Source of the DNA: an uncultured Bacteroidales bacterium
GTDB taxonomy: Bacteria; Bacteroidota; Bacteroidia; Bacteroidales; Paludibacteraceae
Reading direction: 5' to 3'
Assembly: GCA_902792535.1 (NCBI GenBank)
Contig: CADAZU010000011.1
Location: 1-64,000 of the forward strand
DNA length: 64,000 nt
Shown: positions 3,408 through 17,121 of the stretch, one piece after another
Layout of the letters: every line of letters starts with the position of its first letter
Position numbering within the stretch: position 1 is the first letter of the stretch
Position numbers and translations under genes: made by a program
The notes under the pieces: generated by a model
Databases searched by the model: none
Told to the model about the DNA's origin: nothing
What the model saw: the letters and a program-made list of their open reading frames with translations, nothing else

Positions 3408-5273
3408 ATGGCTGAAGAAAAACCAAACTCAGATAAGAAAAAACCATATCTCGATAATAACGGCAAAGCTTTACCGTATCCTTGGATCATCAATACAATG
3501 CTGTGTATCGTGGGAGGCATGCAGACCATTCGTTTGCGGTTCTGGAGCCGGCGTCCGCGGCATGCGGCGGAGAAAACGCTGCGCGATATTCTGATGATCA
3601 GCAAAGATACCGTTTATGGCAAAGAACACCATTTCGACCGGATACTGACCGCCACCAACGCGGAAGATTTGTTCCGGCTGTACCGTCTGTACGTGCCGGT
3701 GAATGACAGTTTTGAGAGCTTGCGCCCTTACGTAGAGCGGCATAAGAACGGCGAGGAGAATGTGTTATTTCCCGGTAAACCGGATATGTATGCCACTACT
3801 TCGGGGACTACTTCTGCCCCCAAATGGATCCCGATGACCCATAAATACCTGAAGGACGTTTACGGCAGGATGAGCCATATATGGACATGGAATTTCGTCA
3901 AACACCGCAACCGTATTTTCGGCGGACATATCTTCACGACGGTCGGCAAAGAGTGCGAAGGCTACGCGCCGGATGGCACTTTGTACGGGGCTGTGAGTGG
4001 TGTGTTGGTTCGCGATATTCCGCCGATCATCAAGCAACATTACACGGCTCCTGCGTCGGTCATGGCGATCCCGGATTACGGCACGCGCAACTACGTACTG
4101 ATGCGTTTGGCGTTGCAATACCGCGATGTGACGCTGTGGGCGACGGCGAATCCTTCGACCATTTTGGAGTTGCTGCGTGCGCTGAACGAGAACACGGAGC
4201 AGATGATCAACGACATTGAGAAAGGCACGATCAACGAAGATGTGGATATCCCTTACGAGATCCGTTCGGAGTTGGACGCGTATGTTTCTCCGAAACCCGA
4301 ACGGGCTGCGGAGTTGCGGCAGATCTTGGCGGAGAAGGGACACTTGTATCCGAAAGATTTCTGGCCGTGGCTACAGTATCTGAGCACTTGGAAATGCGGC
4401 AATACCAAGATTTACATGGACAAATACATGGACCAGTTCAATTGGGACAAGACGTTCTACCAGGAGTTGGGATATATCGCCACGGAATGCCGTTTCGGTT
4501 TCTCGCTGGACGATACGAACGAGAGTGTGTTGTTCCCGCAATTCCATTATTATGAGTTTGTGGAGGAGAGCGAGCTGGACAGCCCGCGCAAACATTTCCT
4601 GCAGATCGACGAGTTGGAGGTCGGCAAGCGTTACTGCGCGTACGTGACGACCTACGCGGGCTTGTACCGGTATAACATGAACGACCTGGTGGAAGTTGGC
4701 GGCAAGTACTACAACACGCCGACCGTTCACATGGTGTCCAAAGTGAACGGAATCGTGTCGCTAACGGGTGAGAAATTATATGAGCCGCAATTCATGGACG
4801 CGGTACACCAAGCGGAGAAAGAGACGAAGATCAAGACCAAGTTCTTTGTCGGATTTGCAGACGTGGAGGAGTCCAAATACCATTTCTATTACGAGTTTGA
4901 GGACGAGAAGATCTCGCAGGAGCAAGCGGAGGAATTTACCAAAGTGGTGGACGAGAAACTGCAGCAGATCAATATCGAGTACGAGTCCAAGCGTCAGTCG
5001 TTCCGTCTGCATGCCCCGGAGACACATGTACTCCTTTCTAACGCGTACGCGCGATTTAAGGCGGCGTGTCTGAAGGACGGATTCAGGGATGGACAGTTCA
5101 AATTTAACCTGCTGATGCAGGACGAGAAACGCCGTAGCCGATTCAACCTGCTGTTGCGGATAGAAAGCGGTTTCGAGCGTTTCAGCGAAGGTGTAATCAA
5201 TAGTGCAGAGAAGATTGATGAAAGAAGAAAACAACGTGCTAAACGGCGTCAAAACCGTCGTGGTGGATCTTGA
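3408..5273 (+). CDS. GH3-family acyl-adenylating enzyme
   Basis: The GH3 auxin-responsive family activates a carboxylic acid as an acyl-adenylate and, in the studied plant members, couples it to an amino acid. This 621-residue cytosolic protein carries the ATP-binding motif ATTSGTTSAPKWIP (TSGTT at 131-135, Lys139). It also has the later family signatures YAGLYRYNMNDLVE and SLTGEKLYE, and ends in a basic tail rich in Arg and Lys. The ATG at 3408 follows its own promoter. Its 3-prime end overlaps the HAD gene by 56 bases, so the two are probably coupled. Bacterial members are common in Bacteroidetes, but their substrates are largely unknown. The operon (HAD phosphatase, acyltransferase, exporter) suggests lipid or acyl-amide chemistry. 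The substrate cannot be read from the sequence. Confidence 0.85.
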   Translation: MAEEKPNSDKKKPYLDNNGKALPYPWIINTMLCIVGGMQTIRLRFWSRRPRHAAEKTLRDILMISKDTVYGKEHHFDRILTATNAEDLFRLYRLYVPVNDSFESLRPYVERHKNGEENVLFPGKPDMYATTSGTTSAPKWIPMTHKYLKDVYGRMSHIWTWNFVKHRNRIFGGHIFTTVGKECEGYAPDGTLYGAVSGVLVRDIPPIIKQHYTAPASVMAIPDYGTRNYVLMRLALQYRDVTLWATANPSTILELLRALNENTEQMINDIEKGTINEDVDIPYEIRSELDAYVSPKPERAAELRQILAEKGHLYPKDFWPWLQYLSTWKCGNTKIYMDKYMDQFNWDKTFYQELGYIATECRFGFSLDDTNESVLFPQFHYYEFVEESELDSPRKHFLQIDELEVGKRYCAYVTTYAGLYRYNMNDLVEVGGKYYNTPTVHMVSKVNGIVSLTGEKLYEPQFMDAVHQAEKETKIKTKFFVGFADVEESKYHFYYEFEDEKISQEQAEEFTKVVDEKLQQINIEYESKRQSFRLHAPETHVLLSNAYARFKAACLKDGFRDGQFKFNLLMQDEKRRSRFNLLLRIESGFERFSEGVINSAEKIDERRKQRAKRRQNRRGGS

Positions 5274-5835
5274 CGGGACGATCTATGACAAGACCGGTCT
5301 GGCGCAGCGTATAGTGGCGCGTCTTTGGTGGTGTCTGCCGTTGCTGGCAGCAGAGCGTTTTGCGCGAAGGAATGCGCATTATGTCCAATTCGCTTCAAAG
5401 GAGGAGTTTTTCGGCTTTTTCTTTGAGACGATGGCACGCGGTCATTGGTGGGGAGCCGGAATCGCCCGCGCATGGTATTTCGAGGTCTATCTGCCGACGA
5501 TGGTAGGTCTCATCCGGCGCTACCATCATCCGCGCAAAGAGGTGCTTGAACTTATTCGCGAGGCGAAGAAGAAAGGGCTGAAAGTGGCGATCTATTCCGA
5601 TTATGGCGCCGTGGTGGAGAAACTGGATGCATTAGGAATAGCTCCCGATATGTTTGACCTGCTGATCTCTGCGCCGGAGTTAGGTGCACTCAAACCCTCT
5701 GAGCCTTGTGCACGCAGGGTGTTGGAGATGATAGAGGCAACGCCGGAGACCACGCTGTTTATCGGCGACCGAGATGACAAAGACGGAGCAAGCGCACGAG
5801 CCGTCGGAGCAAGGTTTTTGAGAATTGAGAGTTAA
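5218..5835 (+). CDS. HAD-superfamily phosphatase
   Basis: This is a 205-residue cytosolic HAD hydrolase. Motif I is VDLDGTIYD (nucleophile and acid Asp), motif II is IYSDYG, the Lys is in GALKPSEP and motif III is FIGDRDDKDG. A cap of about 90 residues between motifs I and II is rich in Trp and Arg, unlike small-molecule HADs with a minimal cap. I start it at the ATG at 5218 and not at the GTG at 5203; both lie inside the end of the GH3 gene. Its place between an acyl-adenylating enzyme and a PlsC-like acyltransferase points to a phosphorylated lipid intermediate as substrate, which is an inference. Confidence 0.85.
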   Translation: MKEENNVLNGVKTVVVDLDGTIYDKTGLAQRIVARLWWCLPLLAAERFARRNAHYVQFASKEEFFGFFFETMARGHWWGAGIARAWYFEVYLPTMVGLIRRYHHPRKEVLELIREAKKKGLKVAIYSDYGAVVEKLDALGIAPDMFDLLISAPELGALKPSEPCARRVLEMIEATPETTLFIGDRDDKDGASARAVGARFLRIES

Positions 5836-5863
5836 GAATTGAGAATTGAGAATTGAGATTTGA
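5822..5863. repeat. gaattgaga junction repeat
   Basis: Four to five copies of the 9-base unit gaattgaga fill the gap between the HAD and acyltransferase genes, and run into the last codons of the HAD gene (IES stop). This is the intergenic form of the repeat found in frame inside pepP and trmN6. Confidence 0.8.
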
Positions 5864-5865
5864 AA

Positions 5866-6759
5866 ATGAATAAACGATATAAAGAGTTAGAAGTGACGGA
5901 AGGGACGTATGTGCCGCCGGTGCAAACGGATTTTCCCGAAGACGATCCATACGTGGGCTTGTATAAGCCGGTCTATGACCGCGATTTTCCTGCGGTGGAT
6001 GCGAACTATCCGTATTTCGATGAGTCCTTTGCTGCCCGGTGCCGGACTTTCTTCGGCTATAATGTGGTGTTGCGTGTTTTGGGTTGGATCTTGCGGATCA
6101 AATATGGTCTGCGATGGCAGATAGAGGGGGAGCAGACATGGCATCGGAGTTCGTGTCCGGTGCGGAAATGGCTGCGGCAGTTTGACCTCTCGCGAGGGGC
6201 TATCACCATCGCTAATCATTGTTACAGACATGATTGCGCTTCGGTGTTGACCACATTCCATGCTTCATCCCACACGCGCATTCCAATGTTCGCACCTAAT
6301 TTCCGGACGAAGGACCAGTTCTACCTGCGTATCGTAGGCGGAGTACCTATTCCTGACGCGGAAGCAGGGTTGAGCGCGATGAAAGCATTCAATGCCGCTT
6401 TTGACCAATACAACGAGAAGGGATATTGGTTTCATATCTTCCCCGAAGCCAAACGCTGGGATTGGTACAAGCCGCTGCGTCCTTTCCAGAAAGGCGCGTT
6501 CACGATGGCATACAAATACAACAAACCCATCCTTCCTTTTGCGGTGACTTATCGCCCGAGAACAGGTATTTACCGCCTTTTCGGACCGAAAAACGAGCCG
6601 CTGACCCAAGTTATAATCGGTAAGCCGATTTACCCCGATACGACGCAGCCTCGCGCAGCCGAAACAGAACGATTATTAAACGAAACACACCAAACAATAT
6701 GTCGTTTAGCAGGAATAAAACACAATACATGGCCGTCCTCGCCCTCATTGCTGCAATGA
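5866..6759 (+). CDS. PlsC-like 1-acylglycerol-phosphate acyltransferase family protein
   Basis: This 297-residue protein is of the lysophospholipid acyltransferase family. The catalytic block is NHCYRHD (HX4D), and FPEAKRWDW is the FPEG-type substrate motif. An unusual N-terminal region of about 55 residues, rich in Tyr, Asp and Pro, precedes a hydrophobic segment (VLRVLGWILRI). I start it at the ATG at 5866, not at a TTG at 5860. Its last 61 bases overlap the start of the transporter gene. The family moves acyl chains onto glycerol-phosphate or related lipids at the inner membrane. A second, different acyltransferase lies at 21553-22557, so this one may serve the specialised operon and not bulk phospholipid synthesis. 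Confidence 0.83.
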   Translation: MNKRYKELEVTEGTYVPPVQTDFPEDDPYVGLYKPVYDRDFPAVDANYPYFDESFAARCRTFFGYNVVLRVLGWILRIKYGLRWQIEGEQTWHRSSCPVRKWLRQFDLSRGAITIANHCYRHDCASVLTTFHASSHTRIPMFAPNFRTKDQFYLRIVGGVPIPDAEAGLSAMKAFNAAFDQYNEKGYWFHIFPEAKRWDWYKPLRPFQKGAFTMAYKYNKPILPFAVTYRPRTGIYRLFGPKNEPLTQVIIGKPIYPDTTQPRAAETERLLNETHQTICRLAGIKHNTWPSSPSLLQ

Positions 6760-7655
6760 TCATCTGGTCCGCCAGCGGGATTGCGATCAAACAAGCTATG
6801 ACCGTTTTTCCTCCGCTTACGATGATCATTCTGCGTTTCACTCCGGCTGTCTTTCTGATGCTTGTCATCGGTCTGATTTGTCGTAAGAGCGAGCTTTTCC
6901 GTTTGCAAAAAGTGGAATGGCACGACCTGCCGCTATTCGCGTTAGCGGGTTTCTGTCAGCCGTTCCTGTACTACCTCTTGGAGACCTTCAGTTACGACGC
7001 GCTCAACAGCCCTACGATCGCCGAAGCGCTGCTGTCCACCAGTCCGTTGCTGGCGCCTGTGTTCGCGGCTATTTTCCTGCGCGAACGAGTGACGAGAAAT
7101 AATATCATCGGAATAGTGATTTCCACCATTGGTATGTTTATGCTGGTGTTGGTCGGCAGCCGCAATTTCTCGATCGGCAGTTATTGGGGTGTGCTGCTGG
7201 CTTTTGCCGCTGTTTCGGCTGCCGTAGCGGACTCCGTTGTGATGCGCAAGATTCCGGCTCAATACAGCCCGCTTACCATTATTTTTTATGCACAAATGGT
7301 GAGTCTCTGTTTCTTCATTCCGCTGTGGCTCTGGCGCGAAGGACCGGGCGCGTTGACGGCGATCGAATGGCGCGCATTGGGAGATATATCCACTCCGCTG
7401 TCGATTGCTGTGATCAGCGTACGGTATCTGACCATTTTCTCCAGCGTGATTGCCTTCATTCTCTTTTGCTACGCCCTGCGGATTGTGGGCGTCTCGCAGG
7501 CGAATGCGTTCAATAATATCCGACCGGGATTTACGGCACTATGGATGCTGCTTTTCTTCGGCGAACAATTACCTTTTGGCAAGTGGATAGGGATGATTTT
7601 AATCATTTTAGGGCTTTTTGTGTGCCAAAAACAAGAAAAAGATAACAAATCTTAA
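6699..7655 (+). CDS. DMT-superfamily (EamA) transporter
   Basis: This is a 318-residue inner-membrane protein with about ten hydrophobic segments arranged as two EamA repeats. An example of the repeat signature is IIWSASGIAIKQAM near the N-terminus, with LTIFSSVIAFILFCYAL in the second half. EamA proteins are metabolite exporters with very varied cargo. The ATG at 6699 lies inside the acyltransferase gene, an overlap of 61 bases. It is the last gene of the operon that begins at 3408; a new promoter follows at 7662-7693. It could export the product of the GH3/HAD/acyltransferase genes, but this is only suggested by position. Confidence 0.85.
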   Translation: MSFSRNKTQYMAVLALIAAMIIWSASGIAIKQAMTVFPPLTMIILRFTPAVFLMLVIGLICRKSELFRLQKVEWHDLPLFALAGFCQPFLYYLLETFSYDALNSPTIAEALLSTSPLLAPVFAAIFLRERVTRNNIIGIVISTIGMFMLVLVGSRNFSIGSYWGVLLAFAAVSAAVADSVVMRKIPAQYSPLTIIFYAQMVSLCFFIPLWLWREGPGALTAIEWRALGDISTPLSIAVISVRYLTIFSSVIAFILFCYALRIVGVSQANAFNNIRPGFTALWMLLFFGEQLPFGKWIGMILIILGLFVCQKQEKDNKS

Positions 7656-7661
7656 TATTTA

Positions 7662-7693
7662 TTTGTATAAACGAAATTTATTTCGTACCTTTG
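7662..7693 (+). promoter_or_regulatory. Promoter of the steroid-reductase operon
   Basis: TTTG at 7662-7665 and TACCTTTG at 7686-7693 form a standard Bacteroidetes promoter 60 bases ahead of the ATG at 7753. It lacks the GCATAT extension seen at most other promoters here. An imperfect dyad (aacgaaatttatttcgt) overlaps the spacer and may be an operator. Confidence 0.65.
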
Positions 7694-7752
7694 TACGCTT
7701 TTTTGGCGTCAATGATGATAGCCTTTATTATGAACTATAACAAACGATACTT

Positions 7753-8562
7753 ATGGAAAATATTTACTCGGTAGAGTTTTTTTACGACTTGTTGTTTATC
7801 CTGTTTCTGGTCGGTTTAGTGGTCTTTGTGGCTCTTTATTTTGTAGATGCGGGCTATGGTAAGATGCGTTCCGATAAATGGGGTCCGGCGATGAATAACA
7901 AAGCGGGCTGGCTGCTGATGGAAGCACCCGTCTTCTTCGTTTTCCTTTATCTTTATTTCAAGTCCTTCAATTTCAATGACGGCGTGACGATGAATGCGCC
8001 TTATTGGGTCTTTTTTCTGATATTCGAGTTTCATTATTTCCAGCGCTCGTTCATCTTCCCGTTCCTGCTGAAAGGTAAAGGGAAAATGCCGTTCGTCATT
8101 ATGATACTGTCCTTTATCTGGAATGTGATCAATGGGTATATCCAGGGCTATTTCCTCTTTTATATAGCCCCGACGGATCCGTATTACGCCCAGGCCTACA
8201 CGCTCTCGTGGCTCACCGACCCGAGGTTTATCATCGGCGTTATTCTGTTCTTCACCGGCTGGGGAATTAACATGCATTCGGACCACGTGATACGAAACCT
8301 GCGCAAGCCCGGAGACACCAAGCATTACCTGCCTAAGAAAGGGCTCTACAAATATGTCACCAGTGCCAATTATTTCGGAGAGATTACCGAGTGGCTCGGT
8401 TTTGCTATCATGACCTGGTCGTACGCCGGACTTGTCTTCTTCTGGTTCAGTTGCTGCAACCTCATCCCCCGCAGCAATGCCATTTACAAGAAATACGAGG
8501 AGGAGTTTCCCGATGAGTTCGACCGCAAGAAACTGAAACGAATCATACCGTTTATATACTAA
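7753..8562 (+). CDS. 3-oxo-5-alpha-steroid 4-dehydrogenase family (5-alpha-reductase, 5AR)
   Basis: This 269-residue polytopic membrane enzyme matches the steroid 5-alpha-reductase family, which reduces a C4-C5 double bond of 3-oxo-delta-4 steroids with NADPH. The C-terminal signature is close to the animal enzymes: NMHSDHVIRNLRKPGD, then LYKYVTSANYFGEITEW, then NLIPRS and a final IIPFIY. About six or seven hydrophobic segments are visible. The stop overlaps the next ATG (TAATG), so it is translationally coupled to the flavoprotein gene. In gut Bacteroidales a 5AR beside a 5-beta-reductase and a 3-beta-hydroxysteroid dehydrogenase converts 3-oxo-delta-4 bile acids to allo-bile acids; this operon has the same three families in series. 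The enoyl reductase of fatty-acid elongation (TER) is a relative, but the HSDHVIRNLR block favours the steroid branch. Confidence 0.88.
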   Translation: MENIYSVEFFYDLLFILFLVGLVVFVALYFVDAGYGKMRSDKWGPAMNNKAGWLLMEAPVFFVFLYLYFKSFNFNDGVTMNAPYWVFFLIFEFHYFQRSFIFPFLLKGKGKMPFVIMILSFIWNVINGYIQGYFLFYIAPTDPYYAQAYTLSWLTDPRFIIGVILFFTGWGINMHSDHVIRNLRKPGDTKHYLPKKGLYKYVTSANYFGEITEWLGFAIMTWSYAGLVFFWFSCCNLIPRSNAIYKKYEEEFPDEFDRKKLKRIIPFIY

Positions 8563-9845
8563 TGAACAAACTATTTACTCCTTTTCAATTAGGACCTATT
8601 ACGCTGCGCAACCGTATTATCCGTAGCGCAGCATTCGAGAATATGGCGCGCAATAATGCGCCGACGCAAGCGTTGCAAGACTATCATGTGTCCGTGGCGC
8701 GCGGCGGAGTAGGAATGACGACCGTAGCGTACGCAGCCGTGGATTTGAGTGGTGTGTCGTTCGACGGACAGCTCTATGTTCGCCCGGAAATCATTCCCGA
8801 TATGAAGAAAATGACCGATGCGATCCATGCGGAGGGCGCGAAAGCTTCGATCCAGTTGGGGCACTGCGGCAACATGACCCATTTCTACACTTGTCATTGT
8901 ATGCCGGTGAGCGCTGACACATGGTTTAACCTCTACAGCCCGACAATCCACCGGAGACTGAAAGTGGAGGAGATTCACCGGCTGGTGAAGAAATTCGGCG
9001 AAGCAGTGGACTGGGCACGCACTTGCGGATTCGACTGCGTGGAGATACACGCCGGACATGCGTACTTGATTTCGCAGTTTATCTCGCCGCGTACCAACCA
9101 CCGGCACGACCGGTACGGAGGTTCGTTTGAGAACCGCGTGCGGTTTATGAACGAAGTGCTGGACGAAGTAATGGCACACGCCGGTGACGACATGGCGGTA
9201 GTGGTCAAAACCAATATGTGGGACGACTGTTGGCACGGATCGGATATAGAGGAAGGCATCAAAATTGCCAAAGAGATCGCCAAGCACAAAGTGCATGGTA
9301 TTGTTCTCTCCGGCGGAACCGTGAGCCGTTCACCGATGACGATTCTTGGCGGCGCTATGCCGTATAAGACCCTCGCGCACTATATGAATATGAAGTCCTT
9401 CTGGTGGCTCAAAGCGGCGCTGAACATACCCGGAGTGGCGGCTATCATGACGCCTACCGTGCCCTTCAAGGAGTTGTATTTCATGGACAAAGCGAAGATC
9501 TTCCAGAAGGAGATCAAGGACGTTCCGCTGATCTATGTCGGTGGTGTGCAGAGCGGCGATAACTGTCGGCAGATCATGGACGAAGGATTCGAACTGTTCC
9601 AGATCGCGCACGTGCTGATCAAAGATCCGGAGTTCGTACACCATGTGCAGGAAAACCCGCACTACCATGCTGGCTGCGGACGATCCAACTACTGCGTGGG
9701 ACGTATGTACACGCTGGATATGAAATGCCATGAGTGCGTAGAGCGCGACGGCGAGAAGATCCCTGCGCGTCTGCAGAAAGAGATCGTCAAGCTGGAAGGC
9801 AAAGCCAAAGAGTCTATCGCCGCACAAAAGGAGGGGAAATGTTAG
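8562..9845 (+). CDS. Old Yellow Enzyme-family flavoprotein, candidate 3-oxo-delta-4-steroid 5-beta-reductase
   Basis: This is a 427-residue FMN-binding TIM-barrel enzyme of the NADH:flavin oxidoreductase family. FMN and active-site signatures are IQLGHCGN (97-104), EIHAGHAYLISQFISP (161-176), and NHRHDRYGGSFENR (179-192). Four cysteines near the C-terminus (372, 378, 389, 392) could bind an iron-sulfur cluster or a metal, but their spacing differs from the usual CX2CX3CX11C. The protein lacks the extra FAD/NAD domain of BaiCD and dienoyl-CoA reductases, so electrons must come directly or from a partner. The start overlaps the 5AR stop and the end overlaps the SDR start. The operon suggests it is the 5-beta counterpart of 5AR. 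Steroid specificity is inferred from context. Confidence 0.85.
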   Translation: MNKLFTPFQLGPITLRNRIIRSAAFENMARNNAPTQALQDYHVSVARGGVGMTTVAYAAVDLSGVSFDGQLYVRPEIIPDMKKMTDAIHAEGAKASIQLGHCGNMTHFYTCHCMPVSADTWFNLYSPTIHRRLKVEEIHRLVKKFGEAVDWARTCGFDCVEIHAGHAYLISQFISPRTNHRHDRYGGSFENRVRFMNEVLDEVMAHAGDDMAVVVKTNMWDDCWHGSDIEEGIKIAKEIAKHKVHGIVLSGGTVSRSPMTILGGAMPYKTLAHYMNMKSFWWLKAALNIPGVAAIMTPTVPFKELYFMDKAKIFQKEIKDVPLIYVGGVQSGDNCRQIMDEGFELFQIAHVLIKDPEFVHHVQENPHYHAGCGRSNYCVGRMYTLDMKCHECVERDGEKIPARLQKEIVKLEGKAKESIAAQKEGKC

Positions 9846-10666
9846 CTTTAGTGACCGGTGCGTCGTCCGGTATCGGACTGCAATACGCTACTGCCTTGGC
9901 GCGTGACTATCATTGCGACCTGCTGTTGGTGAGCAACCAGGAGAAAGAGCTGGAGCAAGTAGCGGCTGACTTGGCTTCTACGTATGGCGTGAAGACGATT
10001 GCTCATTTTGCGGATCTCAGTCTTGCAGACGCGGCGGAAAACCTGCATGCATGGTGCAAAGAGCAGGGGTATGTCATTGATATACTGATCAATAACGCCG
10101 GTGTGTTCTTCTTCAACCCGTATTGCGTGACCTCGATGAAGCGGATTGATCTGATGCTGCAACTGCATGTGGTGACGGTAGCCAAGTTGACACGTCTTTT
10201 TGCCGCTGACATGTGTGCGCGGCAACTGACGGAGGAAGAGGCGAACCAACGTATATGCGGGCATAAACGGATGAAGGGCTATATTCTCAATATGAGCAGC
10301 ATGTCTGCATGGATGGCAATGCCGGGTATTCAGACCTATAATGCCACCAAGGCGTTTATCTATAATTTCTCCAAGTCGATCTGGTACGAACTGAAACCGC
10401 AGAACGTCGGTATTACCGTCATGGCTCCCGGGGCAGTGGATACCGCTCTGTTCGGTTTGGCTCCTAACCTGCGCAAGTTGGCGGTGAACCTGACTGTTTC
10501 CATTCCGCCGGAGAAACTCGTGAAACGCGCCCTGCGCAAAATGTTCCGCAATAAGAAAGCCGACACACCGGGTTTCATCAACTGGCTCTCTACGCCGATT
10601 CTGAAACACACACCGGACTGGCTCGTATTTCTTGCAATAAAATTTGTCGGAAAATATCAAAAGTAA
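9839..10666 (+). CDS. Short-chain dehydrogenase, candidate hydroxysteroid dehydrogenase
   Basis: This is a 275-residue classical SDR. The cofactor loop TGASSGIG is at 6-13, NNAG at 85-88, the catalytic serine at about 154, and the Tyr-Lys pair is YNATK (Y167, K171). A C-terminal extension of about 35 residues with a hydrophobic stretch (WLVFLAIKFVG) may touch the membrane. The ATG at 9839 overlaps the flavoprotein stop by seven bases; an upstream in-frame start at 9734 would lie deep inside that gene and is rejected. In the bile-acid operons of gut Bacteroidales the third enzyme is a 3-beta-HSDH that reduces the 3-oxo group, giving iso- or isoallo-bile acids. Stereochemistry cannot be read here. 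Confidence 0.85.
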   Translation: MLALVTGASSGIGLQYATALARDYHCDLLLVSNQEKELEQVAADLASTYGVKTIAHFADLSLADAAENLHAWCKEQGYVIDILINNAGVFFFNPYCVTSMKRIDLMLQLHVVTVAKLTRLFAADMCARQLTEEEANQRICGHKRMKGYILNMSSMSAWMAMPGIQTYNATKAFIYNFSKSIWYELKPQNVGITVMAPGAVDTALFGLAPNLRKLAVNLTVSIPPEKLVKRALRKMFRNKKADTPGFINWLSTPILKHTPDWLVFLAIKFVGKYQK

Positions 10667-10740: not shown

Positions 10741-10771
10741 TTGGCTATATGAAGAAAAAGTAGTAATTTTG
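10741..10771 (+). promoter_or_regulatory. Promoter of the TonB-receptor / surface-protein locus
   Basis: TTGGCTATATG at 10741 and TAATTTTG at 10764-10771 form the promoter. The leader is about 25 bases, which places the start of the receptor at the ATG at 10800 and not at an upstream TTG at 10782. Confidence 0.75.
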
Positions 10772-10799: not shown

Positions 10800-13544
10800 A
10801 TGAAACATTTTTACAGTTTATTGGTATTAGTTTGCGTTTCTCAAGCTATGCTTGCAGAGACCCTAACCGGTGTTATCACGGATGCTTTTACGCGTGAGCC
10901 GCTGATCGGCGTCACGATTTTGAACACAGCGAATAATAGTGGTACTGTAACCGATTTCGATGGAGCGTACTCGCTGGAGGTCACTTCGCTCCCGGCAACT
11001 ATCAAATTTTCGTATGTAGGCTACCAGACGGAGGAAAAGGTTTTCAAGACCATTCCTGCCGTCTTTAATATGGTGATGCAGGCGGATAATGAGGTGCTGG
11101 ATGAGGTGGTAGTGACCGCCGGTCGTTTCGAGCAGCGAATGACGGATGTGACCGTTTCGATCGAGGTGGTCAAGCCTCAAGCACTGCGCAGTCAGGCTCC
11201 TACGGACCTCTCGGCTACGTTGCAGACCCTGCCGGGTGTGGAGGTGATCGACAAACAGCCGTCTATCCGTGGCGGCGGCGGTTGGACCTACAGTGTAGGT
11301 TCGCGATGCCAGGTGCTGATGGACGGAATGACGATCCTGAACCCCAAGACCGGTGAAATCAACTGGAACAACGTGCCGTTGGAGAATGTGGCGCAGGTGG
11401 AGGTGGTCAAAGGTGCTTCCTCTGTGTTGTACGGTTCGTCCGCCCTCAACGGTGTGATCAACGTTCGTACCCAGCGTCCGGGACTCGAACCGGAGACCAA
11501 GATATCCGGCTATGTAGGTGTGTACGATAACTATCAGAACTATGCTTATACGGGTGCGCGCCTTCCTCTCTATTATGGAGCAGAGGCTTCTCATTCGCGC
11601 CGTGTGGACAATTTTGATGTATCGGGTGCTATCAGCGGATTCAAGGATGAAGGTTTCCGTCAGCAGGGTTTCAACGACCGTGTGCGTTTTGGCGGCAACA
11701 TGACCTACCATATGCCGACCGAGGCGAACAAGTATGTGAACATGGGTCTTAATATGAACTACGTAGCAAACCGCTTTGGCGATTTCTTCATCTGGCGCAG
11801 CCCGAAGGATCCGCTTCATCCGTCGCCACTGACCAATATGGGACGTAACGAGCATAACTTCAACATCGACCCCTTCTTCAATTACGACGATACGGAACGC
11901 GGTATCTCGCATAAACTGCGTACGCGCTTCTACATGACTTCGGATAATATCACCCGTCCTTCGGGCGTGATCAGCACCCAGGATCTGCTGAAATGGGGTC
12001 TGACCAGCTTCGACATGGACAAAGTGATGGGTTATGTGAACGACGTGACCGGCAATATCGGAAACGGAATGGATGTAGTCGACGCGCTGTTGCTGACTTT
12101 CAAAGACGTGACTGTGCCTATCGCCAACGAAGACTGGCTCACCGCAGTGGTGAATGGTATTGACCTCGTGAAGAACGGACTGGGTTATACCGGCACGGTA
12201 GCAGAGATGCAGGATGCAGTGGCTTATGTGATGGACCTGATGACAGATAAGACGCCGACTCGTCCGGAGTTGACCTATAACGGATACATCGACTACCAGT
12301 TCGCAAAACAGTGGAACTCCGGCGTGCGTCTGACAACCGGTATCAACTGGAATCATATCACGAACACGGCTAATATCACTGGAACGCACCATACGGACAA
12401 CGTAGCGGCATACCTGCAATACGACCACCGTATCGCTAACCGTCTCTCCCTCTCCGCCGGTGTGCGTCTGGAGTACTATCGAATGGACGACCAATACAAG
12501 GAAGCCAATATCCAGATCGGTAAATGGCTCTGTCCTGTCCGTCCTGTCTTCCGCGCCGGTTTGAACTGGGAGATCTACAAAGCCGGATTCCTCCGTGCTT
12601 CCTTCGGTCAGGGTTATCGTAACCCCTCTATCACGGAGAAATTTGCCCGTAAGGACATCGGCGGTGTGGGTGTGTACCCCAACAAAAATATCAAGCCGGA
12701 ATCCGGATTTAATGCGGAGTTGGGATATAAGCAGCTCTATAAATTCGGTCCTGTATCCGGTTCGTTGGACGTAGCCGCGTTCTACACCGAGTACCAGAAC
12801 ATGATTGAGTACCAGTTCGGTCTCTTCCGCAACTCGGATTTCACGATGGTGAATTCGATGTACGATGTGATCGATGAGTTGAAGGGTATCATCAATGGTT
12901 TCGCGCAGACCAAATCGCTCGCGAATGCCGGTATCGGTATCGGTGCGCAGTTCGTCAATGTGAGCCATGCGCGTATTTACGGTGCCGAGGTAAGCACCGC
13001 CGGTATGGTTGATATCCGGAAGGATATGAACCTGCGCTATTCGATCGGTTATACGTTCACCGAGCCGGAAGATCTGGACAATGATCGACGCATCGAGGAG
13101 GAGAAAACCTATACCGATCCTCTGCAGATGAAAAACAAGTCCAATGACTCTAAATATCTCAAATATCGTAACAAACACTCCTTCAAAACCACGATTGACT
13201 ATACCTATAAATGGTTCTCCATCGGTGTCAACATGTCGTACCGCAGTAAGATTTTGGCGGTGGACTACCTGATGGTAGATGAACGTGTGAAAGAGCAAAA
13301 GGACCTGATGGACTACGCGCGTATGTTCATCTTCGGATACGAAGACGGACTCTCGCTGCATGACTATTGGATGAGCCATAACAATGGTATTTTCACGATG
13401 GATCTGCGTGCTTCCGTACGTTTCAAGGAGCATGTGGAGATGCAATTCCTGGTAAATAACCTGCTGAATACGGAGTATAGCTATCGCCCGATGGCGCTGG
13501 CTCCCCCTCGTACGTTTGTATGCAGAATGAATATTAATTTCTAA
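10800..13544 (+). CDS. TonB-dependent outer-membrane receptor with carboxypeptidase-regulatory domain
   Basis: This is a 914-residue outer-membrane receptor. It has a signal peptide (cut after about MLA), then a carboxypeptidase-regulatory-like domain (LTGVITD to VGYQTEE, about 20-85). The plug follows (DEVVVTAGRFEQR, DLSATLQTLPGVEV, QVEVVKGASSVLYGSSALNGVINV) and then a large beta-barrel ending in an aromatic residue (MNINF). The plug is of the siderophore/vitamin type and there is no SusD partner nearby, so glycan import is less likely. Two large surface proteins follow on the same strand with a gap of 25 bases to the first. Its position beside the steroid operon makes a hydrophobic ligand possible, but this is only positional. 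Confidence 0.9.
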   Translation: MKHFYSLLVLVCVSQAMLAETLTGVITDAFTREPLIGVTILNTANNSGTVTDFDGAYSLEVTSLPATIKFSYVGYQTEEKVFKTIPAVFNMVMQADNEVLDEVVVTAGRFEQRMTDVTVSIEVVKPQALRSQAPTDLSATLQTLPGVEVIDKQPSIRGGGGWTYSVGSRCQVLMDGMTILNPKTGEINWNNVPLENVAQVEVVKGASSVLYGSSALNGVINVRTQRPGLEPETKISGYVGVYDNYQNYAYTGARLPLYYGAEASHSRRVDNFDVSGAISGFKDEGFRQQGFNDRVRFGGNMTYHMPTEANKYVNMGLNMNYVANRFGDFFIWRSPKDPLHPSPLTNMGRNEHNFNIDPFFNYDDTERGISHKLRTRFYMTSDNITRPSGVISTQDLLKWGLTSFDMDKVMGYVNDVTGNIGNGMDVVDALLLTFKDVTVPIANEDWLTAVVNGIDLVKNGLGYTGTVAEMQDAVAYVMDLMTDKTPTRPELTYNGYIDYQFAKQWNSGVRLTTGINWNHITNTANITGTHHTDNVAAYLQYDHRIANRLSLSAGVRLEYYRMDDQYKEANIQIGKWLCPVRPVFRAGLNWEIYKAGFLRASFGQGYRNPSITEKFARKDIGGVGVYPNKNIKPESGFNAELGYKQLYKFGPVSGSLDVAAFYTEYQNMIEYQFGLFRNSDFTMVNSMYDVIDELKGIINGFAQTKSLANAGIGIGAQFVNVSHARIYGAEVSTAGMVDIRKDMNLRYSIGYTFTEPEDLDNDRRIEEEKTYTDPLQMKNKSNDSKYLKYRNKHSFKTTIDYTYKWFSIGVNMSYRSKILAVDYLMVDERVKEQKDLMDYARMFIFGYEDGLSLHDYWMSHNNGIFTMDLRASVRFKEHVEMQFLVNNLLNTEYSYRPMALAPPRTFVCRMNINF

Positions 13545-13569
13545 TGTCTTGTGTTTAATGTTTTGTGAG

Positions 13570-16500
13570 ATGAAAAAGATATTATTTATCATAGCAAACT
13601 TATTGGTGAGCTGTACAGCCGTGATGGCAGTTGCAGTAAATGATGTTGCCGGAATGTATAAAGGAACATTACGTATCGCCGGCACTCCTTATGCGAATAA
13701 AGAGATTTATATTCTGCCGGGTGTTGAGAGCAATACCGTGACTTTCGTTCTGCCGGATTTCTCCTTCGGCGAAGTCTCGTTGGGAGACATCGTGGTGGTC
13801 AATATACCCATGGCGACCGATGGTAAGTTGACCTTGGAGAATCGCCCGCTGTATATCCGTGCGCTGGAGACACATGTTGCGGTGTCTATGACGAGCGAAT
13901 CGGTGCTCTCTGCTGCGAATGCCAAAGTCAATCTGAGTATTGCTGTGGAGGGAATAGACCCTATCGCGGTCTCTTTCTCCGGTGCGCCGAAAGCCGGCAA
14001 TTATGACTTCGAGAACGGTGGTTTCGAGGGTGCTTGGTCTGGTAATGAACCTGCCGGATGGCATTCGTTCGGTTCGGCTACCGGAAGTATGGCTTCTTTC
14101 GTAACCGGTAATACGGACCAGTTCACCCGCTCGACGGACAAACGTCCGGGGTCGACCGGCTCGCAGAGTGCGGTGATCAAATCCAAAACAATCTTTGGCG
14201 TAAAGGCGAACGGTAACTGCACCAACGGACGTATCTTCGCCGGCTCTATGACCGCTTCGGACGGATCGAAAAACTATAATTTCTCCGAGCCTTCCGCGAA
14301 TGATACGTATAATACGCCTTTTGTGGGGCAGCCGGACTCGATGGTATTCTGGGCAAAATATGTTCCTGCGGACGGCAATCCTTCTAATTCTAATAATAAG
14401 GCTCGCGCGCACGCAGTAATTACAACGAGTGCGAAATACCAAGACCCGGAGGCAGGCAATAACTACTCTTCGGTGAAGATTGCCGATGCGGAAATCAACT
14501 ATTCGGCTACCTCCTCAAAGGGATGGCAACGTATCTCGGTACCGTTCAAATATTATTCGGTTGATCCGACGAAAGCAGCCTATATACTGATGACATTTAC
14601 CACCAATGCAACCCCCGGAGGCGGTACTACTTCCGGTAGTTCGGTGGATAATATCTATCTGGACGACGCAGAAATGATCTATAACCATAGTCTCTCGTCC
14701 CTGACGATGAACGGAGCTGCGGTTTCTTTCTCCAACGGGAACGCTTCGTTGGATGCGCAATTCAGCGAAAGCGAGTACCTCTTTGCTGCCAAAACGAACG
14801 GCAAGGCGTCGAAATCGTTTATCGGATATGATCCATTTAAATACCGGGTTCATGTCTATGTAGTAGCCGGCAACTATTCCCAGGCAAAGAGCTACAGCCT
14901 CTATTCGCTCCAGATGGCTGAACCGATTGTTAAGCCGGGAGATACGCAATACACCTATTCCGCTACAACATGCGCCAATGAGCCTTATACGGATGCCAAC
15001 TTCGAGAACCTGACGGAGGAAGGCGTTTATACCAGGACTATTTCCAATGCAGCCGGAGCGGACTCTGTTATTACATTGACGCTGTCTGTTCTGCCGACTT
15101 ATCTCTTTAACGAAGAGATCTCAACGGCAAATTCGACCATAGAATGGAGAGGAAAGCAGATCAGCGGGTTGGAGTATTCCGACGAACCCTATTTCTTCTA
15201 CGATAGTCTGAAGACCACACAGGGCTGCGACTCGATCTATCGTCTCTCGCTCTATTATACCTCTGTTCCGCGTACCTATGGTGAGTACAAAGCTCGCATG
15301 TGCGAAGGCGACTCGGTAGAGTTCAACGGGGTATATTACCATTCTGCCTTTACGGGCGATGTAGTCCTCTCGAAACCGAACCATTTTGGCGGAGACTCAG
15401 TAGTACACCTGACGATAGAAACCGCGCCTCATTACCAGACAGAGGAATACATGACCATCCATCAAGGCGAAGAGAAGACATGGGCGGGTTTTGACCTGAG
15501 CAAAATGGATCCCGGAATGCTGACGCTCAAGACGCAGTATGTGTCGGCTGATGAATGCGACTCTATCTGTATCCTGCATCTCACGGTGCTTTCGACCTCC
15601 AAGCCTTGGAGCAAAGGTACCGAGACTTATACGGTGCGCGAGCTGTGTGGCAAATATGAAGGAGAGTTGGTCATCGACGGAGCTATTTATGCGGATAAAG
15701 AGGTATATGTCCTGCCGGGCACTGTGGATAGCACGGTGACCTTCGTACTGCCGGACTTCACCTATAATGCCGGCAAACTGGGACATATCGTGCTTCCGAA
15801 TATCGACGTCACTTCGTATGGACAGTTGTTGCTGGAGCATAGAGCGCTCTATATGGATACGATCAGCGAGCGCGCTACCGTGACTATGATTAATGGTCTG
15901 AAGGAAGGAAGGGAGGAGTATTATTCCTTGCTCTCGCCGGAGCAAGCACAAGTGGTGCTCTATATCGAGGCACCGTCTCTGCCGCAAGGTATTCTGGTCT
16001 TCTTCCGCGGTATAGCAGATCGCGAGAAGAACTATGATGTAGTGAACGGCGGTTTCGAGGGTACTTGGTCCAATAACGAGCCTGCCGGATGGCATTCCTT
16101 CGGCTCGGCTACCGGCGCTATGGTGGATTTTGTAAAAAATAACACGCAACAATTTGTGCCCTCTACGCAGGTGCGGCCGTGGTCGAATGGCAAACAAAGC
16201 GCCCTGATTTCTTCCACGAAACTACTGAAAGTAATGGCGAATGGTAACTGCACCAATGGTCAGATCAATGCCGGTTCGTATAATGCTACCGATATAACGA
16301 AGAATTACAACTTCTCCGATCCGGCGAACGAAGGATTTAATACTCCTTTCCACGGCCGTCCGGACTCGATTGTCTTCTGGGCGAAATATATTCCTGCTGA
16401 TCGCAATGCGAAGAATGAGGTGAACAAGGCACGTATGAGTACGATCATTACGACCGATGCGCGCTATCAGGATCCGGAGGAAGGGGACTACTATGCCGAT

Positions 16501-17121
16501 GTCAAGATCGCTAAAGCGGAAGTTAACTATGCCGCTGCTGCTGACCTGGGATGGCAACGCATCTCGACTCCGTTCCGCTATAATGAGGCTACGGCAGAGA
16601 GCAAACCGGCGTACGTACTGACCACCTTTACGACCAATATGTTGCAGGGCGGAGGCTCGTCCTATACCGATACGGAGGCTAATCGCAATGTCTTTGACTC
16701 CGTTTATCTGGACGACGTGAAAATGATCTACAATAAAGATCTGACCATGCTCGTCCGCAACGAGGAGCCGGTGGGTTATAAGGACGGCGTATTTGAAGTA
16801 GAAGAGACCTATTGCGATTCGTGTGATCTCTATAGCGCTATGACCAATGGTATCTCTACCCAGACTTTCTTCGCTTTCGACGAGGCGCACCGCTGTGTCT
16901 TTGTATATGTGATCGCGGACGACTACAGCCGCTCGGTGGACTATACGCTCTATCGCGTGGAGTTCAGCGACAGCGACACAAAGGGGCTGATTCAGCCGAC
17001 AGAGGCAATAGAGAATGTGTCTCTTCGCGATGCCCGGTTTGAGAAAGTGCTCTACCAGGGCGAACTCTATATCCGTTGCGGCGATGTTTGGTTTAACGCC
17101 TCGGGCGCGCGCGTAAAATAA
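13570..17121 (+). CDS. Large surface protein with duplicated calycin-like and PCMD domains
   Basis: This 1183-residue exported protein begins MKKILFIIANLLVSC at the ATG at 13570. The LVSC could be a lipobox, or the signal may be cut later at AVMA. A calycin-like domain (MYKGTLRIAG, about 29-135) is followed by a PCMD carbohydrate-metabolism domain (NYDFENGGFEGAW, from about 143, to about 375). Three small Cys-containing repeats follow (pattern GCDSIYRLSL). A second calycin-like domain (KYEGELVIDG, from 695) and a second PCMD (from 820) follow. The two halves are still alike at DNA level about 2.0 kb apart, so this is an internal duplication. The C-terminal 25 residues (KVLYQGELYIRCGDVWF) resemble those of the next gene and may be a sorting tail. 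It lies 25 bases after the TonB receptor, probably in the same operon. Confidence 0.75.
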   Translation: MKKILFIIANLLVSCTAVMAVAVNDVAGMYKGTLRIAGTPYANKEIYILPGVESNTVTFVLPDFSFGEVSLGDIVVVNIPMATDGKLTLENRPLYIRALETHVAVSMTSESVLSAANAKVNLSIAVEGIDPIAVSFSGAPKAGNYDFENGGFEGAWSGNEPAGWHSFGSATGSMASFVTGNTDQFTRSTDKRPGSTGSQSAVIKSKTIFGVKANGNCTNGRIFAGSMTASDGSKNYNFSEPSANDTYNTPFVGQPDSMVFWAKYVPADGNPSNSNNKARAHAVITTSAKYQDPEAGNNYSSVKIADAEINYSATSSKGWQRISVPFKYYSVDPTKAAYILMTFTTNATPGGGTTSGSSVDNIYLDDAEMIYNHSLSSLTMNGAAVSFSNGNASLDAQFSESEYLFAAKTNGKASKSFIGYDPFKYRVHVYVVAGNYSQAKSYSLYSLQMAEPIVKPGDTQYTYSATTCANEPYTDANFENLTEEGVYTRTISNAAGADSVITLTLSVLPTYLFNEEISTANSTIEWRGKQISGLEYSDEPYFFYDSLKTTQGCDSIYRLSLYYTSVPRTYGEYKARMCEGDSVEFNGVYYHSAFTGDVVLSKPNHFGGDSVVHLTIETAPHYQTEEYMTIHQGEEKTWAGFDLSKMDPGMLTLKTQYVSADECDSICILHLTVLSTSKPWSKGTETYTVRELCGKYEGELVIDGAIYADKEVYVLPGTVDSTVTFVLPDFTYNAGKLGHIVLPNIDVTSYGQLLLEHRALYMDTISERATVTMINGLKEGREEYYSLLSPEQAQVVLYIEAPSLPQGILVFFRGIADREKNYDVVNGGFEGTWSNNEPAGWHSFGSATGAMVDFVKNNTQQFVPSTQVRPWSNGKQSALISSTKLLKVMANGNCTNGQINAGSYNATDITKNYNFSDPANEGFNTPFHGRPDSIVFWAKYIPADRNAKNEVNKARMSTIITTDARYQDPEEGDYYADVKIAKAEVNYAAAADLGWQRISTPFRYNEATAESKPAYVLTTFTTNMLQGGGSSYTDTEANRNVFDSVYLDDVKMIYNKDLTMLVRNEEPVGYKDGVFEVEETYCDSCDLYSAMTNGISTQTFFAFDEAHRCVFVYVIADDYSRSVDYTLYRVEFSDSDTKGLIQPTEAIENVSLRDARFEKVLYQGELYIRCGDVWFNASGARVK

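Follow-up and report, generated by a model that had tools for sequence, protein, structure and literature searches.

We report that three overlapping genes in an uncultured Bacteroidales bacterium probably encode one reductive pathway that acts on the A and B rings of 3-oxo steroids. The genes lie within the window, by which we mean the whole 64,000-nucleotide stretch of DNA that was analysed, and encode a steroid 5-alpha-reductase family protein (5AR), a short Old Yellow Enzyme (OYE) and a short-chain dehydrogenase (SDR). The features that enter the argument are as follows.

3408..5273, + strand: GH3 family protein resembling acyl-acid amido synthetases, upstream neighbour (Pfam GH3, 7e-65; in 44/80 loci of named relatives)
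5224..5835, + strand: HAD hydrolase, upstream neighbour (Pfam Hydrolase, 4.5e-18; 44/80 loci)
5866..6759, + strand: PlsC-like acyltransferase, upstream neighbour (Pfam Acyltransferase, 3e-8; 44/80 loci)
6699..7655, + strand: EamA (DMT) transporter, upstream neighbour (Pfam EamA, 5e-40; 67/80 named loci)
7600..8500, + strand: stretch (approximate limits) that recombination has exchanged, compared with the nearest relatives, L002 and L003 (DNA identity; conflicting 5AR and OYE trees)
7662..7693, + strand: match to the Bacteroides-type promoter, TTTG-N20-TACCTTTG (regular-expression scan), 59 nt 5' of the 5AR start
7753..8562, + strand: 5AR, steroid 5-alpha-reductase family membrane protein, 269 aa (Pfam Steroid_dh, 7e-41; PDB 7c83, 9e-58, and 7bw1, 6e-41; tree)
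7918..8037, + strand: 5AR catalytic motif M56-E57...Y95 (QEY in other SRD5As, with Q replaced by M; alignment)
8562..9845, + strand: OYE, short FMN Old Yellow Enzyme, 427 aa, candidate 5-beta-reductase/dehydrogenase (Pfam Oxidored_FMN, 3e-58; Y168 in 155/155)
9675..9737, + strand: OYE cysteines C372, C378 and C389 (near-invariant) and C392, a probable Fe-S site that has lost the usual second Cys (alignments)
9839..10666, + strand: SDR, classical-type, 275 aa, candidate hydroxysteroid dehydrogenase (Pfam adh_short, 3e-32; S153/Y167/K171)

The first A of the OYE gene is also the final base of the 5AR stop codon, and OYE and SDR share 7 nt; the ORF coordinates thus agree with the overlaps of one and seven bases described in the initial annotation, and the Pfam matches bear out the three enzyme families named there. 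Its proposal of a single operon under one promoter fits both the overlapping genes and the one promoter match before 5AR; scanning the whole + strand for the consensus listed above gave four matches in the 64 kb. The conserved unit is frequently extended upstream in the named loci by the GH3, HAD, acyltransferase and EamA genes. As an order-wide partner EamA is unsupported, with close matches at 0/28 order 5AR loci and 1/29 order OYE loci within short flanks, the single positive locus being a genus member. At some loci OYE and SDR are separated by UbiA and DMT genes, and some relatives have an FMN reductase nearby. An RND efflux pump near the ruminant OYE, an idea taken from a P. distasonis record, was not seen when the ORF starts of loci L044 and L046 were inspected by eye; both loci encode a protein of 1,214-1,216 aa.

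The three-gene arrangement is not due to chance. Among the 111 genomes of the genus sampled, 5AR was present in 102 and OYE in 104, and each was found in 44 of the 45 of good quality. At family level (150 genomes) 5AR occurred in 65, OYE in 64 and SDR in 61 (E cut-offs 1e-3, 1e-60 and 1e-45, respectively), with all three in 56, and the co-presence of 5AR and OYE gave a Fisher p of ~1e-28, uncorrected for kinship. Both were present in 59 family genomes, lying no more than 500 bp apart in 45, and SDR accompanied OYE in 58, in 10 of which the two shared a contig at a distance of 10-205 kb; separate contigs for two genes in a draft genome need not mean that they are unlinked. Across 295 genomes of the order, a close 5AR was found in 35, a close OYE in 39 and both in 33 (within 1,100 bp in 29), close and distant homologues being split at a gap in the match listing and two OYE fragments of genome G296 being assigned to the distant class. 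The loci of named relatives contained 5AR in 77/80 and SDR in 74/80, some of them ending at a contig edge; these 80 were kept from the 134 relatives found by the OYE scan, which favours near kin because its patterns were built on the OYE of the window itself. Since 5AR, OYE and SDR co-occur in Bacteroidales, they most likely serve a single pathway. A 3-beta-HSD/isomerase like the one beside a more distant 5AR clade was found in 0/41 genus genomes, in a search run without a positive control.

The alignments (155, 152, 168 and 93 sequences) were cleared of rows with internal stops or with less than 75-80% coverage and retain some duplicates (L001 and L086, for instance, are both the window); the trees were midpoint-rooted and carried long-branch warnings. 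The best solved relatives of 5AR were PbSRD5A (7c83, 9e-58) and human SRD5A2 (7bw1, 6e-41), with homology over almost the full length, as against 4e-8 for the enoyl-CoA reductase art-1. We therefore rejected an enoyl-CoA reductase identity; grouping with those enzymes had been named in advance as grounds for abandoning the steroid reading, and the protein lies nearer to the true SRD5As. Excerpts of the SRD5A structural study give the catalytic role of QEY and a list of NADPH sites, and record that Q56A/L abolished the activity of human SRD5A2 (PMC7815742). By that site list, as excerpted, the window 5AR retains E57 and Y91 in common with the solved SRD5As, as well as seven of eight NADPH sites (N160, D164, R171, N193, E197, R227 and Y235), and differs from them in having M at Q56 and I at H231. 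MEY replaced QEY in 168/168 aligned Bacteroidales 5AR sequences and in 3/3 further loci of a phylum sample. With the Q of QEY replaced and E and Y kept, 5AR is best regarded as a homologue with an altered signature rather than a standard SRD5A member. Position 231 was I, L or V in 152/152 sequences of the closer clade, whereas H was kept in 14/16 of the more distant Bacteroidales clade. The window's 5AR allele has also been exchanged by recombination, to judge from the DNA identity to L002/L003, which is 67-83% within 7600..8500 and 81-98% in the intervals outside it.

The OYE has Oxidored_FMN as its only Pfam match and a second domain is absent, in keeping with the earlier description of a short protein that lacks a FAD/NAD domain. 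Its suspected status as a distinct branch was upheld by a clade with 100/100 support on a long stem in the midpoint-rooted tree. BaiCD-type enzymes have a C-terminal FAD/NAD(P) domain and a four-Cys Fe-S motif, and a C-terminal Cys motif is also carried by the ci2350-type 5-beta-reductases and by 2,4-dienoyl-CoA reductase; the window OYE has the barrel and catalytic Tyr in common with all of these. Membership of BaiCD was rejected: against the 642-position model (NCBIfam NF041087, cut-off 825 bits) the single-domain protein of 427 aa scored 175.5 bits in a match confined to the OYE barrel; its score against a mycofactocin OYE model was about equal, at 175.0 bits. The catalytic Y168 was kept in 155/155 relatives and is directly preceded by A, with Q at Tyr+4. 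By contrast, the tested steroid clade has N at Tyr-1 and S at Tyr+4, and the bile-acid clade has Y or S at Tyr-1 and E at Tyr+4; the BaiCD and ci2350 types have S or E at Tyr+4. The preceding Ala occurred in 78/80 named loci and was replaced by Gly in 56/72 other relatives.

The cysteine pattern CX5CX10CX2C is as initially described, but the claim that it is unusual fails within the protein's own branch, where all 155 relatives have C372 and C378, 154 have C389 and 110 have C392. This fourth cysteine was present in 79/80 named loci and absent from records of P. massiliensis and P. distasonis, and the second cluster Cys position was Ser in the window OYE and in 80/80 named relatives. With three near-invariant cysteines as against four in related enzymes, the alignments suggest that this is probably an Fe-S site from which the second Cys has been lost. 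The predicted structure of the OYE was set aside (mean pLDDT 57, with residues 345-401, including most of the Cys region, below 50).

The SDR has the classical TGxxxGxG start (T6 in 92/93 relatives) and the catalytic S-Y-K, with S153 in 91/93, Y167 in 93/93 and K171 in 93/93. The catalytic tetrad of classical SDRs is N-S-Y-K, and the tetrad Asn is replaced here by His110, which was found in 93/93 relatives and aligned to the Asn of two solved SDRs; N85 was ruled out as the tetrad Asn because His110 occupies the aligned position. Catalytic residues of the operon are conserved with three exceptions, namely Q56 to M and H231 to I in 5AR and the tetrad Asn to His in SDR, and these, together with the low BaiCD score of OYE and the atypical flanks of its catalytic Tyr, count against a steroid pathway.

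As we infer the reactions, with their direction, stereochemistry, substrates and OYE electron donor, 5AR would use NADPH to convert 3-oxo-delta-4 steroids to the 3-oxo-5-alpha (flat) form, OYE would act on the 5-beta (bent) side, either from delta-4 to 5-beta or in reverse, and SDR would interconvert 3-oxo and 3-hydroxy groups. Jointly they could flip 5-beta steroids to 5-alpha and epimerise C3. A conversion of this kind, in which 5BR, 5AR and 3-beta-HSDH turn 5-beta bile acids into their 5-alpha forms, is reported for gut Bacteroidetes in excerpts of three studies (PMC9645264, PMC12697870, PMC11271093). The three families of that isoalloLCA-pathway set are those of the window operon, clustered likewise in a Bacteroidales genome, and the kinship to the gut gene set put forward in the initial annotation stands. 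In place of the tested Parabacteroides and Odoribacteraceae proteins, two records catalogued as plasmids were compared: that of Phocaeicola massiliensis has 5AR (53% identical) and OYE (54% identical), with a different type of SDR after them, and that of P. distasonis has OYE and SDR (51% and 38% identical), with no 5AR found in the record. The ruminant clade differs from the gut set in its long stem, the fourth OYE cysteine, the Ala before the catalytic Tyr, the upstream GH3-HAD-acyltransferase-EamA block and the lack of strong bile salt hydrolase (BSH) matches alongside this OYE type. The bile-acid 5-alpha-reductases BaiP/BaiJ of Firmicutes share with the window 5AR the proposed class of end product (5-alpha). 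An excerpt of PMC9645264 distinguishes them from the membrane enzymes with this activity in Bacteroidetes; the window 5AR is of the membrane SRD5A type.

The operon is possibly, as we tentatively propose, a forestomach-adapted, ring-isomerising one for plant-steroid substrates, in which a short OYE with a three-cysteine Fe-S site would draw on a separate electron carrier, the OYE type tracking the compartment (bile-exposed or pre-bile) within the genus. Substrates of the ruminant clade would likely be steroids that enter the forestomach, such as plant sapogenins, sterols and some host steroids, with bile acids when present. It is also quite possible that the genes are a plain gut Bacteroidales bile-acid pathway, of the type that converts 3-oxoLCA to isoalloLCA, with bile acids as the natural substrate; the chemistry would be the same and the substrate would differ. 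Consistent with this are the shared families and an order-wide clade that includes Phocaeicola and Parabacteroides species, which are from the human gut. The labels of the 80 named relatives include hindgut in three and abomasum or duodenum in two. Against it, a forestomach organ is given in 19 and RUG, which we take to mean rumen uncultured genome, in 27 (together 46), while 24 state no habitat. Strong BSH matches (CBAH, E <1e-49) were found in 0/17 genomes with the window OYE type and in 14/47 with other types (p = 0.013), the E cut-off and the 79% identity line between OYE types both having been chosen post hoc; with weak matches included the counts are 5/17, which favours bile acids, and 19/47, which means that the strong matches carry the contrast. 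Strong CBAH matches also occurred in 4/86 genomes without the window OYE, and the window's own genome (82.65% complete) gave no CBAH match.

In the rumen, excerpts of one study describe the conversion of added bile acids by microbes to alloCA and 3-beta epimers ("5-alpha- and 3-beta-epimerisation"), which speaks for a role in bile-acid metabolism, yet report bile acids as very rare in the control, untreated rumen (PMC11193847). The initial annotation's view of bile acids as the natural substrate is accordingly weakened by the forestomach and RUG labels, the absence of strong BSH matches and the near bile-free untreated rumen. As the operon seems to lie largely upstream of bile, plant steroids become a serious alternative target. 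Diosgenin undergoes saturation and epimerisation in the rumen (PMC5535167), and tigogenin has been reported from sheep too (PMC10385484).

It is unlikely, in our judgement, that the pathway serves an endogenous lipid, in which case the 5AR-like protein would reduce a lipid of the enone or polyprenal type, and membrane-lipid synthesis or repair would be the business of OYE, SDR, GH3, HAD and acyltransferase. A gene set so nearly universal in the genus (44/45 good genomes for 5AR and OYE alike) could nonetheless serve such a lipid rather than a dietary steroid, and the upstream GH3, HAD and acyltransferase genes at 44/80 loci and the UbiA and DMT genes between OYE and SDR would fit; the polyprenal-type SRD5A3, moreover, was outside the 5AR structure comparison, which took in PbSRD5A, SRD5A2 and art-1. 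Set against this are the patchy distribution in the order (close 5AR in 35/295, close OYE in 39/295), the conservation in 168/168 sequences of the E and Y of the motif that recognises the 3-oxo group and the lack of any GH3 or acyltransferase match in order loci outside the family, where flanks of ~1.5 kb would mostly miss GH3. Slightly less probable still is that OYE reduces another enone, for example a plant secondary product, and is not a 5-beta-reductase, leaving only 5AR and SDR active on steroids: OYEs are promiscuous, the active-site positions resemble neither tested clade and OYE occurs without 5AR in 5/64 family carriers and without a close 5AR in 6/39 order carriers, but it co-occurs strongly with this 5AR clade and overlaps 5AR in the window.

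The literature surveyed, mostly titles and abstract openings, yielded no gene assigned to ruminal sapogenin reduction or epimerisation. For rumen alloCA formation the excerpts of PMC11193847 assign no reductase, and they propose L-ribulose-5-phosphate 3-epimerase for the 3-beta step; 3-alpha- and 3-beta-HSDH were absent from dairy-cow intestinal MAGs by KO annotation, according to PMC9750977. Epismilagenin, a product of sapogenin reduction and epimerisation by rumen microbes, once conjugated by the liver, blocks bile flow and leads to photosensitisation in grazing animals (PMC5535167, in excerpt).

In summary, 5AR provides a natural case for asking whether a whole bacterial clade can dispense with the Gln of QEY that the human enzyme needs. 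If the proposed pathway is true, the operon would supply enzymes for the ruminal conversion of diosgenin to smilagenin/epismilagenin and tigogenin, which has been known for a long time, and for the 5-alpha-epimerisation of bile acids, described in the rumen only recently, and it provides concrete candidate genes for ruminal alloCA formation and for the reduction and epimerisation of plant sapogenins.

We confirmed that the trio at 7753-10666 is a real operon of tightly coupled genes, with overlaps of 1 and 7 bases, and Pfam assigned the products, in gene order, to the enzyme families named in the initial annotation, which had read them as a steroid or bile-acid reductase operon:

7753-8562, + strand, steroid 5-alpha-reductase family protein (5AR; Pfam Steroid_dh)
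8562-9845, + strand, short FMN Old Yellow Enzyme of 427 aa (OYE; Pfam Oxidored_FMN)
9839-10666, + strand, short-chain dehydrogenase (SDR; Pfam adh_short)

The + strand of the 64 kb contains four matches to the Bacteroides-type promoter consensus, of which one lies ahead of the trio at 7662-7693. Because a separate -7-like box at 10764 serves the TonB-dependent receptor downstream, the SDR is probably the last gene of the operon.

When the OYE was used as query against 84,980 species genomes, the best 80 of 134 relatives were kept (the named loci; 81-98% identity), by title Paludibacteraceae or unclassified Bacteroidales/Bacteroidia MAGs. Titles of these best 80 of 134 gave rumen, reticulum or omasum for 19, RUG isolates (presumably rumen) for 27, other ruminant MAGs for five, caecum or colon for three, abomasum or duodenum for two and no habitat for 24. 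Of 111 genomes sampled from the genus of the window, 102 carried 5AR and 104 OYE; among the 45 of good quality, each gene was present in 44. Across 150 genomes of the family, 5AR occurred in 65, OYE in 64 and SDR in 61, with 5AR and OYE together in 59 and all three in 56; across 295 genomes of the order, 35 had a close 5AR and 39 a close OYE, and 33 had the two together, no more than 1,100 bp apart in 29 (Fisher p ~1e-28 for the family and ~1e-35 for the order, kinship not being corrected for). This co-occurrence makes a single pathway the most likely reading. Spacing in the family was at most 500 bp for 45/59 5AR-OYE and 28/58 OYE-SDR pairs. Eleven of the 14 non-adjacent 5AR/OYE pairs lay on different contigs, which in drafts are not necessarily unlinked, and in 10 family genomes the SDR was retained on the same contig 10-205 kb from the OYE.

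Upstream of the trio, the ruminant loci carry GH3, HAD and acyltransferase genes (44/80 each) and EamA (67/80), a block that occupies 3408-7655 in the window; the GH3 protein scored 89.7 bits against the OlsH model, far under its 620-bit cut-off. Downstream, 10803-17121 encodes the TonB-dependent receptor (14/80 loci) and then a large protein that contains a calycin-like domain (13/80 loci). In four loci (L053, L057, L061, L065) OYE and SDR are separated by a DUF486 DMT-type small membrane protein and a UbiA prenyltransferase, as judged from Pfam runs on one example of each insert (L053, L065). A second SDR, 48-55% identical to that of the window, directly follows the first in six of the 80 loci (L034, L035, L036, L039, L044, L046) and could provide the opposite C3 stereochemistry.

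The solved structures nearest to the 5AR are PbSRD5A (9e-58) and human SRD5A2 (6e-41), with the enoyl-CoA reductase art-1 at 4e-8. The 3-oxo group is held by a Q-E-Y motif, and human activity is lost in Q56A/L, E57L and Y91F (PMC7815742). Instead, M-E-Y was found in all 168 aligned Bacteroidales 5ARs and in three further loci of the phylum-wide sample, in which 4/247 genomes, that of the window included, had 5AR matches. The Met is probably tolerated in these candidate 5ARs, because the Phocaeicola sequence has M-E-Y too and active 5ARs have been reported for gut Bacteroidetes. At the NADPH-binding position H231, the His is retained by 14 of 16 more distant sequences; the 152 closer ones have I, L or V there, the window having I. 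Those distant sequences represent a separate Bacteroidales clade (34-42% identity), in which an extended SDR precedes the 5AR by 7-88 bp in 10 of the 16 loci fetched (L166, L167, L168, L171, L174, L176, L178, L181, L182, L185); two examples run through Pfam matched Epimerase and 3Beta_HSD, so that a two-gene steroid or sterol cassette is possible. A search of 41 genomes of the window's genus, run without a positive control, did not find this type of extended SDR.

The catalytic residues of the SDR are conserved: of 93 relatives, 91 have S153 and all have Y167 and K171. Ordinary classical SDRs carry a tetrad Asn; the residue aligned with it, His110 in the window, is His in 93/93 relatives, a further clade-wide oddity.

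The suggestion that the OYE is a distinct branch was borne out: the named ruminant loci and unnamed kin group together (support 100/100, stem length 0.84 changes per column) in a midpoint-rooted tree with long-branch warnings, and Phocaeicola and Parabacteroides records branch elsewhere within the larger clade that includes them all. Its short length, without any further Pfam domain, and the annotated cysteine pattern (CX5CX10CX2C) also held. The motif of distant relatives is C-x2-C-x2-C with one further Cys; Ser replaces the second of these four in the window (CGRSNYC) and in 80/80 named loci, while C372, C378 and C389 remain near-invariant, a pattern suggestive of a cluster ligated by three cysteines, or of a substitute for the lost ligand. 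C392 occurs in 79/80 named loci and in 29/72 other relatives, mostly of the family, and is thus not unique to the ruminant clade. A structure model was set aside for the Cys site, its quality being too poor. Lacking an FAD/NAD domain, the OYE likely depends on an outside electron donor; candidates are the genes for an NADPH-dependent FMN reductase that lie close to the OYE in the alternative contexts of L049, L064 and L072. Tyr+4 is Q in 154/155 sequences, and Tyr-1 is A in 78/80 named loci and G in 56/72 others; for steroid-hormone and bile-acid 5-beta-reductases, respectively, PMC12238238 gives S and E at Tyr+4, and N and Y/S at Tyr-1. The genus holds two OYE types, 14 of 104 carriers being at 65-68% identity to the window OYE; their 5AR is at 70-76%, which suggests OYE replacement in these carriers.

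When L002 and L003, the closest relatives, are compared with the window, DNA identity drops to 67-83% across ~7600-8500 (promoter and 5AR), from 81-98% in the intervals around it in an otherwise conserved operon. The OYE tree places the window beside L002 (100/96), the 5AR tree with L019 and L025 (99/96). The dip and this conflict indicate that the 5AR was most likely exchanged as a module, probably by allelic replacement. The pattern recurs in two genus genomes, G737 and G742, with the OYE at 98% and the 5AR at 80%, although these may be identical with L002 and L003.

As to substrate, the kinship to Bacteroidetes bile-acid genes proposed initially stood, and two findings favour bile acids. 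A gut pathway acting on them has been reported for Bacteroidetes, and rumen microbes fed bile acids yield alloCA, a 5-alpha bile acid, and 3-beta epimers, for which the consulted sections of PMC11193847 propose other enzymes and do not name 5AR. Yet the same source describes bile acids as very rare in the untreated rumen. Strong bile salt hydrolase (BSH) matches (E below 1e-49) occurred in 0/17 genomes with this OYE type (79% identity line) versus 14/47 with other types (p 0.013), both cut-offs having been set after the data were seen; with weak matches the counts were 5/17 and 19/47. Of the 13 genus members in this sample, G118 and G138 had strong BSH matches, and they alone carried an OYE of the 66-67% type. 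Forestomach labels, rumen scarcity and the BSH contrast count against bile acids being the natural substrate. Annotated 3-alpha- and 3-beta-HSDH are reported absent from dairy-cow intestinal MAGs, in a study whose scope, as far as consulted, excluded 5AR/5BR and rumen MAGs (PMC9750977). Other findings favour plant steroids: the rumen saturates and epimerises diosgenin (PMC5535167), and smilagenone, epismilagenin and tigogenin have been reported in sheep (PMC10385484). Such products would be expected if OYE, 5AR and SDR worked on a 3-oxo-delta-4 sapogenin.

5AR, OYE and SDR most likely constitute a reductase/isomerase set for steroid A/B rings that is kin to the bile-acid genes of Bacteroidetes. 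What is new is that such an operon, with sequence features of its own, characterises a whole genus of ruminant bacteria that seem to live mostly upstream of bile.
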